Source: Xanthomarina sp. F1114 | GTDB lineage: Bacteria; Bacteroidota; Bacteroidia; Flavobacteriales; Flavobacteriaceae | NCBI RefSeq assembly: GCF_026410255.1 | Contig: NZ_JAPMLL010000010.1 | Span: forward strand, 1 to 64,000 | Reading direction: 5' to 3' | Length of the DNA: 64,000 nucleotides | Shown here: positions 49,767 through 61,351 of the stretch, piece after piece | Layout of the letters: each line of letters opens with the position of its first letter | Position numbering within the stretch: the stretch's first letter is position 1 | Translations under genes and position numbers: made by a program | Notes under the pieces: generated by a model | What the model saw: only the letters and a program-made list of their open reading frames with translations | What the model was told of the DNA's origin: nothing | The model's database searches: none

Positions 49767-50158
49767 GGGGTCGACTGGTTTTGACAGCGAGATTAATTAG
49801 ATAGTAAGCACGTCGTGTAATGACTTTGAGACACGTAAAAGGCTAGGTCACACTTTTAAACGGCGAGAATAACTACGCTTTAGCTGCCTAATCTGAATTA
49901 TAGTAAGATTGGCCTAGGTACACAAGGTGTACAAGCTAAATGTCTCCTGAAAGCCTTGATTAACGGCGTTCGAATAGAGGCATCGTAAATGTTAATATAG
50001 AAAGTAGAACGCTTCGGTTTACTTTTGAAACTAAAGAAGATAAGTTGCAAGTGGGTTGTCTTTAACCAGCTTGTAATCGAAAAACCAAGAAAAGAATAAA
50101 CGTGTAGAAAGCTCTTTGATTACTTGTTTGGACGAGAGTTCGATTCTCTCCGACTCCA
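49767..50158 (+). ncRNA. ssrA: Transfer-messenger RNA
   Basis: The 5' end GGGGTCG (49767-49773) pairs with CGACTCC (50151-50157) as the acceptor stem, with discriminator A at 50158 and CCA not fully encoded. The T-arm GAGAGTTCGATTCTCTC (50134-50150) lies before it. The tag frame GGC GAG AAT AAC TAC GCT TTA GCT GCC TAA (49862-49891) encodes GENNYALAA and stop. tmRNA frees stalled ribosomes and marks proteins for proteolysis. One-piece form, about 392 nt. Confidence 0.96.
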
Positions 50159-50163
50159 CATTT

Positions 50164-53758: not shown

Positions 53759-54277
53759 TTATTTTAAAAATTGATTAATTTCGTGTTCTAATTCGGCGTA
53801 AGTAAAAGCCTTCTCAAAAAACACACGTTCTTCTTTATTAAAAATTAAAGTGGCAGGAATAGCACCAGACCAACTTTTATCTACTTTTGGAATCCAGGTA
53901 TTAGAATCCATATCGTTTAATACTACAACTTTAGATTCTAAATTATTCTCCGCTATAAATGGCTTTAATTTAGTTTCATATACATGTGGAAAATCTAAAC
54001 TCACCAAGATAACTTCTACGTTCTTATCGGAATATTTTTTATTTAAAGTTTCAAAGTAAGGCAGTTCCTTAATACAGGGCGCACACCAGGTAGCCCAAAA
54101 ATTAACAATATAAGTCTTATCTGTGTTAGTACTTAAGTATTTTTCCAAACCCTTAAAATCCACAATCTCTAAGTCCGATTTTTGCACCTCTGTACTCGCA
54201 GACTCATGTGCTTTTACTTCTCTTTCATTTTTACATGAAATCAACGAAAACACCAATAAAATCAATAAATACCTCAT
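53759..54277 (-). CDS. TlpA-family thioredoxin-like lipoprotein
   Basis: A 172-residue lipoprotein (VFSLISC) with a thioredoxin fold and active site WATWCAPC (CxxC) near residue 65, followed by the cis-Pro loop GAIPATLIFNKE. TlpA/ResA-type reductases keep exported Cys reduced, for example in cytochrome c maturation. First gene of a four-gene redox run. Confidence 0.9.
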   Translation of the reverse strand: MRYLLILLVFSLISCKNEREVKAHESASTEVQKSDLEIVDFKGLEKYLSTNTDKTYIVNFWATWCAPCIKELPYFETLNKKYSDKNVEVILVSLDFPHVYETKLKPFIAENNLESKVVVLNDMDSNTWIPKVDKSWSGAIPATLIFNKEERVFFEKAFTYAELEHEINQFLK

Positions 54278-54411: not shown

Positions 54412-54442
54412 TTTGATAAGCTCATTATCATTTCTATCTTTG
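54412..54442 (+). promoter_or_regulatory. trp operon promoter
   Basis: TTTG (54412-54415), 19 nt, TATCTTTG (54435-54442): full match to the Bacteroidota consensus. Transcription should start near 54448-54450, giving a leader of about 210 nt before trpE. Confidence 0.82.
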
Positions 54443-54461
54443 ACTTCTTAGAAAATTACAA

Positions 54462-54524
54462 ATGAATCTATTTTTAAATAATACTTGGTGGTGGAACTTT
54501 CGAAACGCAAACTTCGTGAAGTAA
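54462..54524 (+). CDS. trpL: trp operon leader peptide
   Basis: A 20-codon ORF, MNLFLNNTWWWNFRNANFVK, with three consecutive TGG codons (54486-54494) at positions 9-11. It lies 20 bp after the promoter -7 box and 30 nt before a T-tailed hairpin, with trpE next. This is the geometry of a ribosome-mediated Trp attenuator. TGGA at 54492-54495 can pair with TCCA at 54526-54529, and ACTT/AAGT (54511-54522) form a small hairpin. If a ribosome stalls on the Trp codons, TCCATTG is freed to pair with CAAGG at 54554-54558, blocking the terminator. Confidence 0.9.
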   Translation: MNLFLNNTWWWNFRNANFVK

Positions 54525-54554
54525 CTCCATTGTATATTTTAAACTCAAAATAAC

Positions 54555-54586
54555 AAGGCTTGTCATTCACGACAAGCCTTTTTTTT
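54555..54586 (+). terminator. Attenuator terminator of the trp operon
   Basis: AAGGCTTGTC (54555-54564), loop ATTCAC, GACAAGCCTT (54571-54580), T-run to 54586: a 10-bp perfect stem. It precedes trpE by 73 bp and belongs to the leader, so it is a regulated terminator. Confidence 0.9.
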
Positions 54587-54659
54587 GTTTAAATTAATTA
54601 GAAATTTTCACTTAATGCTTGTCAGATAGCAAGTGCAGAAAAAAACAATAACAATTAGT

Positions 54660-56063
54660 ATGAAGACATTTAGTTTATACACACATTATAAAAAAATACT
54701 TGCAGATACCATGACGCCTGTCAGCATTTATCTTAAAATACGGGATAAATTCCCCAATAGTATTCTATTAGAAAGTAGCGATTACCGTGTAAACCACAAC
54801 AGCTTTTCGTATATCTGTTGCAATCCAATTGCCTCTATAGAAGTAAAAGACGAAGTAATTACTCAAACCTTTCCTGATGGGAGTATTTTTAAAAGCAAAA
54901 TAGATAAAAACACACATGTTCCAGATCTGCTCCATAAATTTACAAAACGTTTTAAAATACAATCTGACAAGAATTTCAAATTTATAAATAATGGCATTTT
55001 CGGATATATAGCTTACGATGCCGTTCGATATTTTGAAGATATTAGTATTTCAAAAAAGGAAAACAACCTTCGCATTCCAGACATTTATTATACTGTTTAT
55101 CAAAACATTATTGCCATAGATCATTTTAAAAATGAAGCCTATATATTTGCTCATTGTTTTAATGCTGAAAATAATATAGACACCTTACTTCAACTTATAA
55201 AGTCTAAAAACTTTGCCGCTTTCAGTTTTTCAGCACAAGGTAAAACCAAATCAAACCTTAGCGATAATGAATACAAAGAGCAAGTTGATCTTGCAAAAAA
55301 ACACTGTGCTCGTGGCGATGTATTTCAATTAGTGCTTTCAAAAAAATTCTCTCAAGACTTTAAGGGCGACGACTTTAATGTGTATCGGGCGCTACGCAGT
55401 ATCAATCCCTCACCTTATCTCTTTTATTTCGATTATGGGAATTTCAAAATCTTTGGAAGCTCTCCAGAAGCACAATTGGTTATTAATAAGAATAAAGCTG
55501 AAATTCACCCAATTGCAGGAACTTTTAAACGCACTGGAAACGATGAAAAAGATGCTGAATTAGCAAAAAAACTAGCATCGGATAATAAGGAAAATGCCGA
55601 ACACGTCATGTTGGTCGATTTAGCGAGAAACGATTTAAGTAGAAACGGAAGTGAGGTGGAAGTACAGAAATACAGAGAAGTTCAATTTTTTTCGCACGTC
55701 ATACATTTAGTGAGTAAAGTAGTTGGTACTGTACATAAAAACACAAAAACCATGCAAGTTGTAGCAGACACATTTCCAGCGGGGACTTTAAGTGGTGCTC
55801 CCAAATATAAAGCGATGCAGCTTATTGAAAAATACGAAAAAACCAATAGAGGCTTTTATGGTGGAGCCATTGGTTTTATGGATTTTGAAGGAAATTTTAA
55901 TCACGCCATAATGATTAGAACCTTTTTAAGCAAAGATCATCAATTACATTGGCAGGCTGGAGCTGGTTTGGTGTCAAAATCAAATCCTGAAGACGAACTA
56001 CAGGAAGTTTATAATAAATTAGGAGCCTTAACAAAAGCTATTGAAATTGCGGAGGAGATATAA
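54660..56063 (+). CDS. trpE: Anthranilate synthase component I
   Basis: A 467-residue chorismate-utilising enzyme. ATG at 54660 is chosen over an in-frame GTG at 54633. The N-terminal Trp-feedback motif LLES-x10-S is intact at 36-50. The C-terminal core carries FQLVLSKKFSQ, SSPEAQLV, PIAGTFKRTG, LVDLARNDLSRNG and PAGTLSGAPKYKAM. It uses ammonia from TrpG to make anthranilate. First gene of the trp operon, 125 bp before trpG. Confidence 0.97.
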   Translation: MKTFSLYTHYKKILADTMTPVSIYLKIRDKFPNSILLESSDYRVNHNSFSYICCNPIASIEVKDEVITQTFPDGSIFKSKIDKNTHVPDLLHKFTKRFKIQSDKNFKFINNGIFGYIAYDAVRYFEDISISKKENNLRIPDIYYTVYQNIIAIDHFKNEAYIFAHCFNAENNIDTLLQLIKSKNFAAFSFSAQGKTKSNLSDNEYKEQVDLAKKHCARGDVFQLVLSKKFSQDFKGDDFNVYRALRSINPSPYLFYFDYGNFKIFGSSPEAQLVINKNKAEIHPIAGTFKRTGNDEKDAELAKKLASDNKENAEHVMLVDLARNDLSRNGSEVEVQKYREVQFFSHVIHLVSKVVGTVHKNTKTMQVVADTFPAGTLSGAPKYKAMQLIEKYEKTNRGFYGGAIGFMDFEGNFNHAIMIRTFLSKDHQLHWQAGAGLVSKSNPEDELQEVYNKLGALTKAIEIAEEI

Positions 56064-56188: not shown

Positions 56189-56782
56189 ATGACTATGAAA
56201 AACATATTAGTTATTGATAATTACGACAGTTTTACCTACAACCTGGTTCACTACTTAGAAGATTTAGCGTGTAAAGTAACCGTAAAAAGAAACAACCAAC
56301 TTCATTTAGATGATGTTGAAGCATTTGACAAAATTATACTATCTCCAGGTCCAGGGATTCCAGACGAAGCTGGTCTGCTAAAACCAATTATTAAAAAGTA
56401 TGCTGCCACAAAAAGTATTTTAGGTGTTTGCCTAGGACAGCAAGCTATAGCCGAGGTATTTGGTGGCAAACTAATCAATTTAGAAACAGTATTTCATGGC
56501 GTAGCAACAAAAGTTACAACATGTGTTACAGATGAAGTTTTATTTAATGGCTTGGACAAATCATTTCAAGTTGGAAGATATCACTCGTGGGTAGTAGACA
56601 CCAATCTCCCAAAAGAATTAGAAGCAACCTCTTTTGATGACAATGGACAAATTATGTCTTTAAGACATAAGTTTTACGATGTAAAAGGCGTTCAATATCA
56701 CCCAGAGTCCGTTTTAACACCACATGGAAAACAAATATTAGCAAATTGGTTACAAATTCCTGAAAAAGCAGGAATCCTATAA
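56189..56782 (+). CDS. trpG: Anthranilate synthase component II (glutamine amidotransferase)
   Basis: A 197-residue class I glutamine amidotransferase. Catalytic Cys81 (GVCLGQQAI), His171 and Glu173 (QYHPES). The N-terminus IDNYDSFTYNLVHYL and LSPGPGIP are typical. The start could be 56189 or the ATG two codons later (56195); the first abuts a palindrome. The last eight residues (IPEKAGIL) are encoded within a palindromic repeat and look like an add-on. Confidence 0.95.
   Translation: MTMKNILVIDNYDSFTYNLVHYLEDLACKVTVKRNNQLHLDDVEAFDKIILSPGPGIPDEAGLLKPIIKKYAATKSILGVCLGQQAIAEVFGGKLINLETVFHGVATKVTTCVTDEVLFNGLDKSFQVGRYHSWVVDTNLPKELEATSFDDNGQIMSLRHKFYDVKGVQYHPESVLTPHGKQILANWLQIPEKAGIL
56756..56775. 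repeat. Palindromic repeat inside the 3' end of trpG
   Basis: ATTCCTG-AAAAAG-CAGGAAT (7-bp arms, 6-nt loop) spans the codons for the final IPEKAG residues of TrpG and ends before its stop. It has probably extended the reading frame. Confidence 0.6.
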
Positions 56783-56836
56783 ACAAAAACAATCATTTAA
56801 CACCAATTAAAAAACGTCTGCTATGGCAGGATTAAT

Positions 56837-57835
56837 ATGAAACAAATTTTAAACAGCCTCCAAAATCAAGAGCGTATTTCTAGGGAAGACGCTAAACAAG
56901 TTTTGGTAAATATCTCTAAAGGGAACTATAACCAAAGCCAAATGGCATCTTTTCTAACTGTTTTTATGATGAGAAGTATTACTATTGAAGAACTTTCTGG
57001 GTTTAGAGACGCCCTTTTAGAATTGTGTATTCCAGTAGATCTAGAGGCATACAACACAATCGATTTATGTGGTACTGGCGGGGATGGCAAAGACACGTTT
57101 AATATTTCAACCTTGGCCTCGTTTGTAACAGCTGGAACGGGTATAAACGTAACCAAACACGGAAATTATGGCGTATCATCGACCTGTGGGTCTTCCAATA
57201 TTTTAGAGTATTTAGGTGTAAAGTTTACAACAAACACAGATATTCTAAAACGCTGTTTAGACAAAGCTGGCTTTTGTATTTTACATGCACCGTTATTTCA
57301 CCCAGCCATGAAAAATGTGGCTCCAATTAGACGAGAACTTGGAATGAAAACATTCTTTAATATGCTCGGGCCTATGGTAAACCCTTCGTTTCCTAAACAT
57401 CAACTGGTTGGTGTTTTCAATTTAGAATTACTGCGTATGTACGGTTATTTATATCAAAATACAGATACAAATTACACCATTCTCCACGCTTTAGATGGAT
57501 ATGACGAAATTTCTCTAACAGGACCAACAAAAGTTATTCAAAACAATTCCGAATTTATAATAAGTCCTGAAGATTTTGATGTAGAACCGTTAGAACAAGA
57601 AGCAATTCATGGCGGAAATTCTGTAGCAACTTCAGCAAAAATATTTACTCATATATTAAACGGTCAAGGTACAGAAGCCCAAAACAATGTAGTCTGTGCC
57701 AATGCTGCTATGGCAATTGCAACAGTTACAAAAAAGCCTCTAGCAGACAGTTTTAATTTAGCAAAAGAGTCTTTGGAAAGCGGGAAAGCTCTAAATAGTT
57801 TTAAACAATTAGTAGATATAAGCAATAAAACATGA
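56837..57835 (+). CDS. trpD: Anthranilate phosphoribosyltransferase
   Basis: A 332-residue enzyme that adds phosphoribose from PRPP to anthranilate. The signature DLCGTGGDGKDTFNIST binds PRPP; KHGNYGVSSTCGSSNILEYLG and NVAPIRRELGMKTFFNMLGPMVNP complete the family motifs. It overlaps trpC by four bases (ATGA at 57832-57835), a sign of translational coupling. Confidence 0.97.
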   Translation: MKQILNSLQNQERISREDAKQVLVNISKGNYNQSQMASFLTVFMMRSITIEELSGFRDALLELCIPVDLEAYNTIDLCGTGGDGKDTFNISTLASFVTAGTGINVTKHGNYGVSSTCGSSNILEYLGVKFTTNTDILKRCLDKAGFCILHAPLFHPAMKNVAPIRRELGMKTFFNMLGPMVNPSFPKHQLVGVFNLELLRMYGYLYQNTDTNYTILHALDGYDEISLTGPTKVIQNNSEFIISPEDFDVEPLEQEAIHGGNSVATSAKIFTHILNGQGTEAQNNVVCANAAMAIATVTKKPLADSFNLAKESLESGKALNSFKQLVDISNKT

Positions 57836-58617
57836 ACATTTTAGACAAAATAATAACAGACAAACGTCAAGAACTCATCTTAAAAAAAGAGATCTTCACT
57901 GTAAAAATGCTTGAACAGATTCCTTTTTTTGAGAGAAACACCTTTTCCTTAACCCGGAAATTACAAAATAGCCATTCTGGAATTATTGCCGAATTTAAAA
58001 GGTGCTCCCCTTCAAAGTCCATGATAAATAATACGGCCTTAGTAGAAGATATAGCCATTGGTTATGAAAATGCAGGGGTTTGTGGTATCTCCGTTTTAAC
58101 CGATGAAATATATTTTGGAGGCACATTAGACGATTTAATAACTGCCAGACAAAATTGCAATTTACCCATTCTTAGAAAAGAATTTATAATAGACGAACTT
58201 CAAATTATTGAAGCCAAAGCCTTTGGTGCAGACGTCATTTTATTAATTGCCGCCATCCTGACAAAAGCTGAAATAAAAAGATTTTCAGAATTAGCAAAAA
58301 GCCTGAATTTAGAAGTGCTTTTGGAAGTTCATAACGAAGAAGAACTACATAAATCTCTTATGCCTAGCCTTGATATGATTGGTATTAATAACAGAGATTT
58401 AAAGACCTTTGAAGTGAGTCTTGAAACCAGCAAAACCTTAAGCAAACTTATACCAAACAATTTTCTAAAAGTATCAGAAAGTGGCATTAGTTCTGTTGAA
58501 GCTATTACAGACTTGCAGGCTTATGGCTATCAAGGTTTTTTAATAGGTGAGAATTTTATGAAGACTGAGAATCCTGGAAAAAGTGCCAAAGAATTCATAA
58601 AAAACATAGACAGATGA
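57832..58617 (+). CDS. trpC: Indole-3-glycerol-phosphate synthase
   Basis: A 261-residue TIM barrel. IAEFKRCSPSKS carries catalytic Lys; LTDEIYFGG, LRKEFIIDELQIIEA, LEVHNEEEL, IGINNRDLKTFEV and SESGISS follow in order. Overlaps trpD and trpF by four bases each. Confidence 0.97.
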   Translation: MNILDKIITDKRQELILKKEIFTVKMLEQIPFFERNTFSLTRKLQNSHSGIIAEFKRCSPSKSMINNTALVEDIAIGYENAGVCGISVLTDEIYFGGTLDDLITARQNCNLPILRKEFIIDELQIIEAKAFGADVILLIAAILTKAEIKRFSELAKSLNLEVLLEVHNEEELHKSLMPSLDMIGINNRDLKTFEVSLETSKTLSKLIPNNFLKVSESGISSVEAITDLQAYGYQGFLIGENFMKTENPGKSAKEFIKNIDR

Positions 58618-59246
58618 AGCTAAAAGTTTGCGGTATGAAATACCCTAAAAACATCCAAGAGGTTGCAAGTTTAGAGCCTGATTATCTAGGTTTTATTTTC
58701 TATGAAAAATCGTCACGGTTTTTTGAAAACGAACACTCTATAATACCAAAACAAATAAAGAAAGTTGGTGTTTTTGTAAATGCCGAAGTTTTTGATATTG
58801 TAGAAAAAGTAATAAGACACAAATTAAATATTATTCAACTACATGGCAAGGAAGACGAACTTTATGTATTGCGTTTAAATATGGCTTTAAGGCTATTGTC
58901 TCCAAATGTACTTGTTTGGAAAGTATTTGCTATGGAAGATCATTTCGACTTCAACAAGCTAAAACCTTTTGAAAATAAGGTCGATAAATTCCTTTTCGAT
59001 ACTAAAGGGAATAATCCAGGAGGAAATGGATATACTTTTAATTGGAAAACTTTAAATATTTACCCTTTTACAAAACCATTTATTTTAAGTGGAGGCATAG
59101 GCTTAAACGAATTGGAAAACTTAAAGACATTTTTTAAAAAACCAGTTTCCAAGTATTGCTATGCCATTGATGTTAATAGTAAATTTGAAACATCTCCAGG
59201 ACTAAAAGACATTGAAAAGTTAAAAACATTTATAACGCAATTATGA
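58614..59246 (+). CDS. trpF: Phosphoribosylanthranilate isomerase
   Basis: A 210-residue TIM barrel: [12 protein letters not shown] with the catalytic Cys, [27 protein letters not shown] with catalytic Asp, and LSGGIGL. The family is usually about 200 residues. Overlaps trpC and trpB by four bases each. Confidence 0.95.
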
Positions 59247-60424
59247 GCTACAATATAAACACAAAAGGTTATTATGGAGATTTTGGAGGTGCTTATATTC
59301 CAGAAATGCTCTATCCAAATGTAGAAGAATTAAGGCAGAATTATTTAAAAATTATGTCGGATTCAGAATTCCAAAAAGAATTCCATCAGCTATTAAAGGA
59401 TTATGTTGGCCGGCCATCTCCCCTCTATTTTGCCAAACGCCTTTCCGAAAAATATGAGACGAACATCTATTTAAAACGCGAAGACCTAAACCACACAGGA
59501 GCTCATAAAATTAATAATACCATAGGTCAAATTCTTATGGCAAAACGCTTAGGAAAACATCGTATTATCGCCGAAACCGGAGCAGGACAACATGGGGTAG
59601 CCACAGCTACTGTTTGTGCTTTAATGGGTTTAGAATGTATTATTTATATGGGAGAAATTGATATTGCTAGACAAGCTCCAAATGTAGCACGAATGAAAAT
59701 GCTTGGTGCAACAGTAATTCCGGCAAAATCAGGAAGTAAAACTCTAAAAGACGCAACTAACGAGGCTATAAGAGACTGGATTAACAATCCAATAAACACA
59801 CATTATATTATAGGTTCTGTGGTTGGGCCTCATCCCTATCCAGACATGGTTGCTAGGTTTCAAGCTATAGTTTCAGAAGAAATTCAATGGCAATTAAAAG
59901 AACAAACGGGGAAAACAAAACCAGACTACATAATAGCTTGTGTTGGCGGTGGTAGTAATGCGGCCGGAGCTTACTACCATTTTTTAGACAATACAGATGT
60001 TAAATTAATTGCCGTAGAAGCTGCTGGAAAAGGCATTCATTCTGGAGAAAGTGCTGCTACCTCTGTATTAGGAAAAGAAGGCATTATCCATGGTAGTAAA
60101 ACACTTTTAATGCAAACAACCGATGGACAAATTACGGAGCCCTACTCCATTTCGGCAGGACTTGATTATCCCGGAGTTGGACCTATGCATGCACATTTGT
60201 ATAAGTCAGGTCGTGCAGAATTTCTATCAATTACAGATAATGAAGCTATGAACGCAGGATTAGAGCTTTGTCAATTAGAAGGAATTATTCCCGCTATAGA
60301 AAGCTCTCATGCCTTAGCCACCTTTAAAAAGAAACAATTTAAACCAAACAATGTTGTTGTGCTAAGTCTATCTGGCCGTGGCGATAAAGATTTAGAAACC
60401 TATATCAATCATTTTAAATTATAG
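59243..60424 (+). CDS. trpB: Tryptophan synthase beta subunit
   Basis: A 393-residue PLP enzyme: [14 protein letters not shown] start, [16 protein letters not shown] with Schiff-base Lys, [23 protein letters not shown] phosphate loop and LSGRGDKD near the end. Converts indole plus serine to tryptophan. It overlaps trpF by four bases but is separated from trpA by 162 bp containing a repeat. Confidence 0.98.
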
Positions 60425-60430
60425 CATCAT

Positions 60431-60506
60431 GGCGTTACCACAAGGGTCAGGCTTTCGGCAGTCGCTCTTTGCAAGGAGCTCCAACAACTGCCTCAATCCT
60501 TAACGC
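60431..60506. repeat. 76-bp inverted-repeat element between trpB and trpA
   Basis: The outer ends GCGTTA (60432-60437) and TAACGC (60501-60506) are inverted, and an inner GGCAGT/ACTGCC pair gives a cruciform-like fold. The phrases GGGTCAGGCTTTCGGC, AAGGAGCTCCAACA and CAATCCTTAACGC recall a dispersed repeat of flavobacterial genomes (recalled, not searched). It breaks the otherwise tight trpD-C-F-B spacing. Confidence 0.6.
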
Positions 60507-60586
60507 AGAAGAAAATCTAGGAAGTTGTTTTTTTACTTCAGACTTGATAATTAAGAAATAAAAGACACGCATTTAAGCAATAAAAA

Positions 60587-61351
60587 ATGAATAGAATTAA
60601 TAAAAAACTACTGGAAAACAAAAAACTACTTTCTATATATTTCACAGCAGGTTACCCCAGTCTAGATAATACAGTTTCTATTATAGAAGGTTTAGAAAAA
60701 AACGGTGTAGATATATTAGAAATTGGACTACCATTTAGCGATCCACTTGCCGATGGCCCAACCATTCAAGCGAGCTCCACTCAAGCTCTAAACAACGGAA
60801 TGACGACCAAAGTTCTTTTTACCCAACTTAAAGACATTAGAAAAACTGTTTCTATTCCTCTAATTATCATGGGATATTTTAATCCAATCTTACAGTATGG
60901 CGTAGAAGCCTTTTGTAAAAAATGTCAGGAAGTTGGCATCGACGGACTTATTATTCCAGATTTACCTGTCGATGTTTATCACGATGAGTATCAAGAGATT
61001 TTTGAAAAACACAAACTCATCAATATATTTTTAATCACACCTCAAACAAGTGAAAAACGCATAAGATATATCGATTCTATTTCCAACGGGTTTATCTATA
61101 TGGTAAGTAGCTCTAGTGTTACTGGAAGTCAATCAGGTTTTGGCGAAGCACAAACTCAATACTTTAAACGCATTGCTAATTTAAAGCTTAAAAATCCTCA
61201 AATAGTTGGTTTTGGAATTTCAGATAAAACAACTTTTAACCAAGCCACACAATTTGCAAAAGGTGCCATTATTGGAAGTGCATTTATTAAATATGTATCA
61301 GAATTTGGTGTAAATAATCTCAAAAGGTTTATAAACACTATAAAAGATTAG
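60587..61351 (+). CDS. trpA: Tryptophan synthase alpha subunit
   Basis: A 254-residue TIM barrel: YFTAGYPSLDNT, catalytic Glu45 and Asp56 in LEIGLPFSDPLADGPTIQ, IIMGYFNPI, GLIIPDLPVD, and VSSSSVTGSQSGF. Last gene of the trp operon, 56 bp before the following amidohydrolase. Confidence 0.97.
   Translation: MNRINKKLLENKKLLSIYFTAGYPSLDNTVSIIEGLEKNGVDILEIGLPFSDPLADGPTIQASSTQALNNGMTTKVLFTQLKDIRKTVSIPLIIMGYFNPILQYGVEAFCKKCQEVGIDGLIIPDLPVDVYHDEYQEIFEKHKLINIFLITPQTSEKRIRYIDSISNGFIYMVSSSSVTGSQSGFGEAQTQYFKRIANLKLKNPQIVGFGISDKTTFNQATQFAKGAIIGSAFIKYVSEFGVNNLKRFINTIKD

Follow-up and report, generated by a model that had tools for sequence, protein, structure and literature searches.

At trpL of E. coli, the position of the ribosome decides the outcome, and the antiterminator takes up the 5′ strand of the terminator. 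The locus described here shares with trpL a short ORF, adjacent Trp codons, a protector helix and a terminator before trpE; unlike trpL, its predicted antiterminator takes up the loop of the terminator together with the upper end of the 3′ strand. It also differs from trpL in its predicted 5′ UTR, in the start context of the leaders of relatives and in that no TrpR match was found in the genome (see below). The Bacteroid-trp motif was published in 2010 by Weinberg et al. and entered Rfam, according to PMC2864571, including its Table 1; PMC6414381 mentions Bacteroid-trp for F. psychrophilum, and PMC9723704 speaks of 'strong clues' for leader-peptide attenuation 5′ of amino-acid operons in that species. 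An earlier note on the present DNA had called flavobacterial attenuation less well documented, a view that these three sources contradict. A text search of PMC2965389 found no mention of Bacteroid-, trpE or tryptophan. In the open literature, we found no antiterminator for Bacteroid-trp, of which an earlier drawing may exist in subscription papers or supplements, and no direct experiment on this attenuator.

We analysed a stretch of 64,000 nucleotides (the window) of Xanthomarina sp. F1114 (Flavobacteriaceae), the genome of which comprises 3.25 Mb in 56 contigs. Among the best 80 of 589 trpE loci, the TrpE of the window is closest to that of Bizionia arctica, now Xanthomarina arctica, with 88 % identity.

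Methods

Out of 589 trpE loci, the best 80 form the named set, and the remaining loci come from the matches to the Rfam model RF01692 themselves (for f1 and f12, the best 30 of a search); leaders missed by this model fall outside the sample. Code f1 stands for Flavobacteriaceae, and f2, f3, f11 and f12 are unnamed family codes. After repair, 229 of 233 loci had a placed Trp run and terminator (L018, L135, L174 and L188 dropped out), corresponding to 220 unique sequences, 205 of which were placed for pairing: 131 from Flavobacteriaceae (window included), 15 from f2, 27 from f11, 27 from f12 and five from f3. The 15 unplaced sequences belong to f3 (seven), f2 (five), f12 (two) and f1 (one). Loci L139-L141 and L143-L145 duplicate places already sampled (L143 that of L231) and were left out of the counts. 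The 3′ edge of the ribosome was assumed, in line with toeprints, to lie 13 nt downstream of where the A-site codon begins.

Results

The leader, the terminator and the operon

The window holds the following features at this locus.

54412..54442, + strand: promoter of the flavobacterial type, with TTTG at 54412-54415, N19 and TATCTTTG at 54435-54442
54462..54524, + strand: leader peptide ORF of 20 codons, MNLFLNNTWWWNFRNANFVK, with ATG at 54462 and stop TAA at 54522-54524
54486..54494, + strand: three Trp codons (TGG), read directly from the sequence, the putative sensor
54555..54586, + strand: intrinsic terminator, AAGGCTTGTC-ATTCAC-GACAAGCCTT at 54555-54580 (perfect, 10 bp) with a T run to 54586
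54660..56063, + strand: trpE, the first gene of the operon, with ATG at 54660 (NCBIfam, solved TrpE relatives)
56189..61351, + strand: trpG, trpD, trpC, trpF, trpB and trpA, in that order (NCBIfam matches)

The earlier note had read the promoter, the 20-codon leader with three TGG codons and the hairpin with its T run from the sequence, and all of these coordinates hold. From the position of the promoter box, the RNA is predicted to start at about 54447, which would give the leader a 5′ UTR of about 15 nt; according to PMC9723704, the flavobacterial promoter box lies at −12 to −5, and flavobacteria are without Shine-Dalgarno sequences. Of 124 Flavobacteriaceae leaders, 121 have TANNTTTG at most 110 nt 5′ of their ATG, as compared with 11.9 expected from a mononucleotide shuffle. 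The window has one copy of TGGTGGTGG on its + strand and two on its − strand. A sigma-70 consensus scan of 701 bases gave six sites where 3.4 were expected and holds no information on this promoter. In 20 of the 124 Flavobacteriaceae leaders, the distance from the end of the TANNTTTG box to the leader ATG is 4-5 nt (predicted 5′ UTR of 0-1 nt), and in 9 of 14 f2 leaders it is 5-6 nt, examples of short-UTR leaders being L039-L042, L049, L052, L071, L072, L077, L080 and others. Such leaders are possibly leaderless leader-peptide mRNAs, and a few of the ATGs or boxes may be mis-chosen.

In relatives, the leaders have 13-31 codons, counting from the nearest ATG, and an A-rich start context. Three Trp codons were present in 130 of the 131 placed Flavobacteriaceae sequences and two in the remaining one. 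Among the best 80 of 589 trpE loci, a Trp-codon run lies 5′ of a terminator in 79 (three codons in 78), the one exception being L018, where the end of the contig cuts the leader off. Relatives thus share the trp attenuator with a Trp leader peptide that had previously been claimed for this DNA.

The order of the genes 3′ of the leader is trpEGDCFBA. The matches of trpG (TIGR00566), trpD, trpC, trpB and trpA were above the cut-offs of their NCBIfam models, the best match of trpE (TIGR00564, 444.9 bits) was under that model's own cut-off of 517.7, and all 12 matches of trpF were below the model cut-off. TrpE carries LLES-x10-S as ILLESSDYRVNHNSFS, which we take to be the Trp-binding motif; its presence had already been pointed out, and the LLES aligned with the LLES of the solved TrpE chains 7bvd and 5cwa. 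Among ORFs of at least 80 aa, the one adjoining the leader on the other side (53759-54277) lies on the minus strand and points away, so the leader hairpin is not the 3′ end of a neighbour, and its most plausible role is to terminate trp transcription prematurely. A search of the genome gave no matches to TrpR (Trp_repressor, PF01371) and none to the T-box (RF00230), the E. coli and B. subtilis controls, respectively, being detected. The window also holds a tmRNA gene at 49767-50161 (RF00023, 141.3 bits).

As in an attenuator, an intrinsic terminator is located between the leader and the first gene. A scan of the 701 bases with a terminator consensus gave three sites where 0.1 were expected, two of them being this hairpin on either strand. 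The leader RNA from 54449 to 54590 folds at −33.3 kcal/mol (z −4.57), and the same RNA cut before the terminator 3′ arm is complete has an unremarkable fold (z −0.53). Of 132 unique Flavobacteriaceae sequences, 125 retain the stem GGCTTGTC, as do 9 of 20 f2 sequences; GGCTTGTC/GACAAGCC, at 54557-54564 and 54571-54578 of the window, is near-invariant across Flavobacteriaceae. Compensated changes in the stem were found in L078 and L079, both Kordia, and in L077.

Membership of the Bacteroid-trp family

RF01692 (Bacteroid-trp) matched positions 54442-54564 over the whole model (1-131) with 50.2 bits, the cut-off being 49. With a score above the cut-off, trp genes downstream and a leader ORF with Trp codons, the element is a member of this known family, and the system itself is not new. 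The model matched in 208 of 299 Flavobacteriaceae genomes (184 over the cut-off), in 42 of 395 genomes drawn from the phylum, and in 21 of 100 genomes of f2, another family of the same order. In three families belonging to the same class, the matches amount to 54 of 98 genomes (f12), 29 of 101 (f11) and 12 of 101 (f3). The model stops with the terminator 5′ arm, its position 131 being the end of GGCUUGUC, and covers the R2 stretch described below, not R4, so that it cannot hold the pairing between the two. Weak Rfam matches to the window (RprA, suhB and others) were below their cut-offs and were rejected as chance.

The protector helix

54472..54494, + strand: 5′ strand of the protector helix, including the Trp codons (duplex energies against shuffles; RF01692 helix region)
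54525..54544, + strand: 3′ strand of the protector helix, approximately CTCCATTGTATATTTTAAA (folding, duplex energies)

The protector helix pairs ATAC..TGG with CC..GTAT. In the 131 Flavobacteriaceae, the duplex had −10.7 kcal/mol as compared with −6.8 after shuffling (mean z −2.0), and it beat the shuffled mean in 120 of 131 sequences of this family, 15 of 15 of f2, 23 of 27 of f11, 27 of 27 of f12 and all five of f3. It corresponds to the helix of the RF01692 model, to which the window aligns with many non-standard pairs.

The earlier note had drawn a switch from a 1:2 pairing, TGGA with TCCA, and a 2:3 pairing, TCC-A-TTG with CAAGG. Both are possible at their coordinates; the 1:2 pairing as drawn is a fragment of the longer protector helix, and the 2:3 pairing had a mean z of 0.03 against shuffles over the 131 Flavobacteriaceae. 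An exact complement of TGGN between the motif and the terminator was present in 6 of these 131 sequences and TCCATTG in one. We rejected the 1:2 and 2:3 switch as drawn for this set, window included.

Pairing of R2 with R4

54514..54520, + strand: R2, the 5′ strand of the predicted antiterminator clamp, TCGTGAA (pairing, covariation in 205 of 220 unique sequences, folds)
54566..54572, + strand: R4, the 3′ strand of the clamp, TTCACGA (five loop bases and the first two of the terminator 3′ arm)

In the window and 79 named relatives, TCGTGA was found 3′ of the Trp codons in 78 of 80 sequences (absent from L025 and L071), and the loop and 3′ arm of the terminator contained TCACGA in 77 of 80 (absent from L033, L047 and L054). 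Among the 205 placed of 220 unique sequences, 88.7 % of the R2:R4 cells were standard pairs, as compared with 21-50 % in slid registers, the percentage being somewhat favoured by construction as R2 and R4 were placed by patterns written after the sequences had been seen. MAFFT with RNAalifold recovered the clamp in f12 and f2; for the antiterminator region of Flavobacteriaceae and f11 it gave apical terminator pairs only, missing the clamp because the AT-rich middle misaligns, and register-based counting was therefore used instead.

The 60 distinct motif pairs had 36 cells changed on both sides, while shuffles, which use the same placed motifs, gave 12.6 (SD 3.0) and reached this number in 0 of 1000 cases. 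Further pair types were also in excess (17 against 12.0, reached in 0 of 1000 shuffles and in 1 of 1000 when partners were dealt out whole); positions with a double change were not unusually numerous (5 against 3.6, reached in 136 of 1000 shuffles). In the 205 placed sequences, p4 was TA in 156, TG in 39, GC in seven, AT in one, GT in one and unpaired in one, and p5 was GC in 138, AT in 45, TA in nine, GT in six and unpaired in seven; p0 and p7 were often unpaired. In the clamp, Flavobacteriaceae pair GTCGTGA with TCACGAC, families f12 and f11 pair GTCGTAAG with CTTGCGGC or CTTACGAC, and f2 pairs GTTGGTTC with GAACCGAC, one f2 genus having GTTGATTC with GAATCGAC (L227) and a G-U intermediate (L230). 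From one family to another, the two strands have thus been rewritten together, with double compensatory changes. Within Flavobacteriaceae, a sign test on the TrpE tree (median p 1) gave no independent support for a register exchange at p0/p7, and for this family alone the comparison shows that the clamp is conserved, without independent compensation.

When paired with the loop and 3′ arm, the R2 region of 126 unique Flavobacteriaceae sequences scored 17.1, as compared with 10.9 (SD 2.1) for shuffled sequences; with the terminator 5′ arm it scored no better than shuffled (10.1 against 11.1). The duplexes of the window behaved in the same way, that with the loop and 3′ arm having −8.9 kcal/mol, equalled in 1 of 200 shuffles, and that with the 5′ arm −3.2 against a shuffled mean of −5.1, with 170 of 200 shuffles as good. 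An antiterminator of the E. coli type, which takes the terminator 5′ arm, was found neither in Flavobacteriaceae nor in the window. Family f3 does not keep the clamp (five placed of 12, 62.5 % paired), and the 5′ arm is favoured there on average (13.5 against 11.3 shuffled, SD 2.4). In f2, L226, L229, L231, L232 and L236 have a TCAAAGTCTT stretch that, by eye, pairs with ten bases of the terminator 5′ arm, and four of the five unplaced f2 sequences share TCAAAGTCTT pairing, again by eye, with the 5′ arm AAGACTTTGA, which suggests a rewired antiterminator in these leaders.

Ribosome spacing and folding

In all 131 Flavobacteriaceae, the R2 core begins 20-25 nt downstream of the first base of the last Trp codon, and a ribosome stalled on that codon leaves R2 free in 205 of 205 sequences from all families. 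A ribosome at the leader stop overlaps R2 in 198 of 205 and covers it wholly in 196; in the seven exceptions, all from f11 or f12, the stop follows the first base of the core by 28-37 nt. Sequence, spacing and folding predict an antiterminator, mutually exclusive with the terminator, that stalling exposes and a ribosome at the stop masks; the masking fails in these 7 of 205. In Flavobacteriaceae, the core contains the stop (TCG TGA, starting 3 nt before it) in 85 of 131 sequences, is located 8 nt before the stop in 29 and 6 nt after it in 11, with six others. The frame of the R2 motif with respect to the leader varies (100/30/1 in this family), and the motif is therefore kept as RNA, not as peptide. 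The seven exceptions, L159, L165, L171, L177, L182, L186 and L200, have leaders that run through the clamp motif in another frame.

In minimum-energy folds from the edge of the stalled ribosome to the end of R4, the R2:R4 helix (at least 6 bp) was present in 125 of 131 Flavobacteriaceae, 13 of 15 f2, 25 of 27 f11, 25 of 27 f12 and none of five f3 sequences. For the window with a stalled ribosome, R2:R4 was best as long as the exposed 3′ end lay at 54569-54577, and the terminator from 54578. RNA polymerase hides roughly the last 10-14 nt of the RNA, so that a polymerase at the T run (about 54586) would have its exposed end approximately where the antiterminator remains the best fold. For the full-length RNA with a stalled ribosome, the terminator had −19.8 kcal/mol against −13.6 for the forced antiterminator, and the switch must therefore be kinetic.

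The his and phe leaders of the same genome

Outside the window, a his leader (L240, G000:C2 near 145168) with four His codons (MTFIQLHHHFHSGIQAS) and a terminator precedes hisG, and a phe leader (L241, G000:C22 near 92004) with a Phe run (MKATLNFAYYNWNYFFFNRRNETSYM) and a terminator precedes a PDT-domain gene. Both resemble the trp leader in having a terminator and a leader peptide, rich in His or Phe. The 5′ arm duplex of the phe leader had −9.5 kcal/mol against −3.7 shuffled (equalled in 1 of 200 shuffles). The his leader, when the ribosome sits on its third His codon, paired its 5′ arm with loop at −10.6 against −5.7 shuffled (4 of 200), and with a ribosome on the fourth there was no 5′ arm preference (−4.4 against −6.0 for the loop and 3′ arm). 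Unlike the trp leader, the phe leader, and the his leader in one ribosome position, thus seem to pair the 5′ arm, as judged from duplex energies in this one genome.

Discussion

We propose, with a probability of about 0.7, that the element is a ribosome-mediated trp attenuator of the Bacteroid-trp family that is switched by R2:R4. The leader, the terminator, the protector helix, the R2:R4 helix and its spacing are established by the comparison of sequences, and we infer Trp sensing, ribosome stalling, timing and the untranslated state. The RNA would start near 54447. When little charged tRNA-Trp is present, the ribosome would stall on the Trp codons, open the protector helix and free R2 (54514-54520), which would then pair with R4 (54566-54572) as the loop and the top of the 3′ arm emerge from RNA polymerase; the terminator could then not nucleate, and trpEGDCFBA would be transcribed. 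When there is enough tRNA-Trp, the ribosome would reach the stop at 54522 and sit over R2, and the terminator would form. If the leader is not translated, the protector helix would stay and the terminator would likewise form. The earlier note was right on the attenuator and missed the conserved antiterminator R2:R4, so its interpretation is partly supported.

A classical attenuator with 1:2, 2:3 and 3:4 pairings, in which the antiterminator takes the 5′ arm (TCC-A-TTG with CAAGG) and R2:R4 is incidental, is favoured by the phe leader, and by the his leader with a ribosome on the third His codon, which by duplex energy pair their own 5′ arms in the same genome. The 5′ arm pairing is also an inner helix within the antiterminator fold of the window, and pairing of R2b with the 5′ arm modestly beats shuffles in f11 (mean z −0.76), f12 (−0.78) and the five f3 sequences (−1.38). 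We nevertheless consider it unlikely, since the 5′ arm helix is at shuffle level in Flavobacteriaceae (57 of 131 beat the shuffled mean) and f2 (z 0.17), and since the window itself has a 5′ arm duplex worse than the shuffled mean and a far stronger one with the loop and 3′ arm.

Five of the seven R4 bases of the window lie in the terminator loop, and a contact confined to the loop could coexist with the stem, so that R2:R4 might be a loop-loop contact (pseudoknot) that stabilizes or times the terminator and does not prevent it. In f11 and f12, however, R4 takes several bases of the 3′ arm, which excludes apical stem pairs, and a ribosome at the stop would mask R2, the wrong sign for helping termination at high Trp; we regard a pseudoknot as quite improbable. 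By our comparison, the terminator stem GGCTTGTC is conserved beyond what the R2:R4 clamp needs or explains. It would be preserved if the terminated leader RNA (about 140 nt) acted in trans, attenuation being its second role, and a trans-acting trp leader RNA is reportedly known in Sinorhizobium. The compensated stem changes of Kordia and L077 nevertheless speak against a role in trans, to which we give very little credence.

For the switch through R2:R4, we lean, at slightly better than even odds, towards a wider reading in which four of the five sampled Bacteroidota families (f1, f11, f12 and part of f2) use an 'apex clamp': a leader strand that mimics the top of the 5′ arm would capture the loop and 3′ arm and block nucleation, having been rewritten several times with compensation, and the target would have moved to the 5′ arm in f3 and part of f2. 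The clamp is the new part here, a claim drawn from comparison; the family has been catalogued since 2010, and its model ends before any antiterminator. If the reading is true, an antiterminator on the terminator loop and 3′ side exists beside his and phe attenuators that are apparently on the 5′ side. The clamp would be a short, exact and testable switch in bacteria described in PMC9723704 as being without Shine-Dalgarno sequences, and ribosome-polymerase coupling could be addressed there with one reporter.

Some relatives have a small ORF between the attenuator and trpE, namely L072 (1140-1436) and L040 (1170-1454), of 285-297 nt with the stop, and in L076 a small ORF lies 5′ of trpE with only its C-terminal part in view. 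Judged by eye from the motif, all three are putatively of the GIY-YIG type; ORFs of this type located between attenuator and trpE would fall under the control of Trp.
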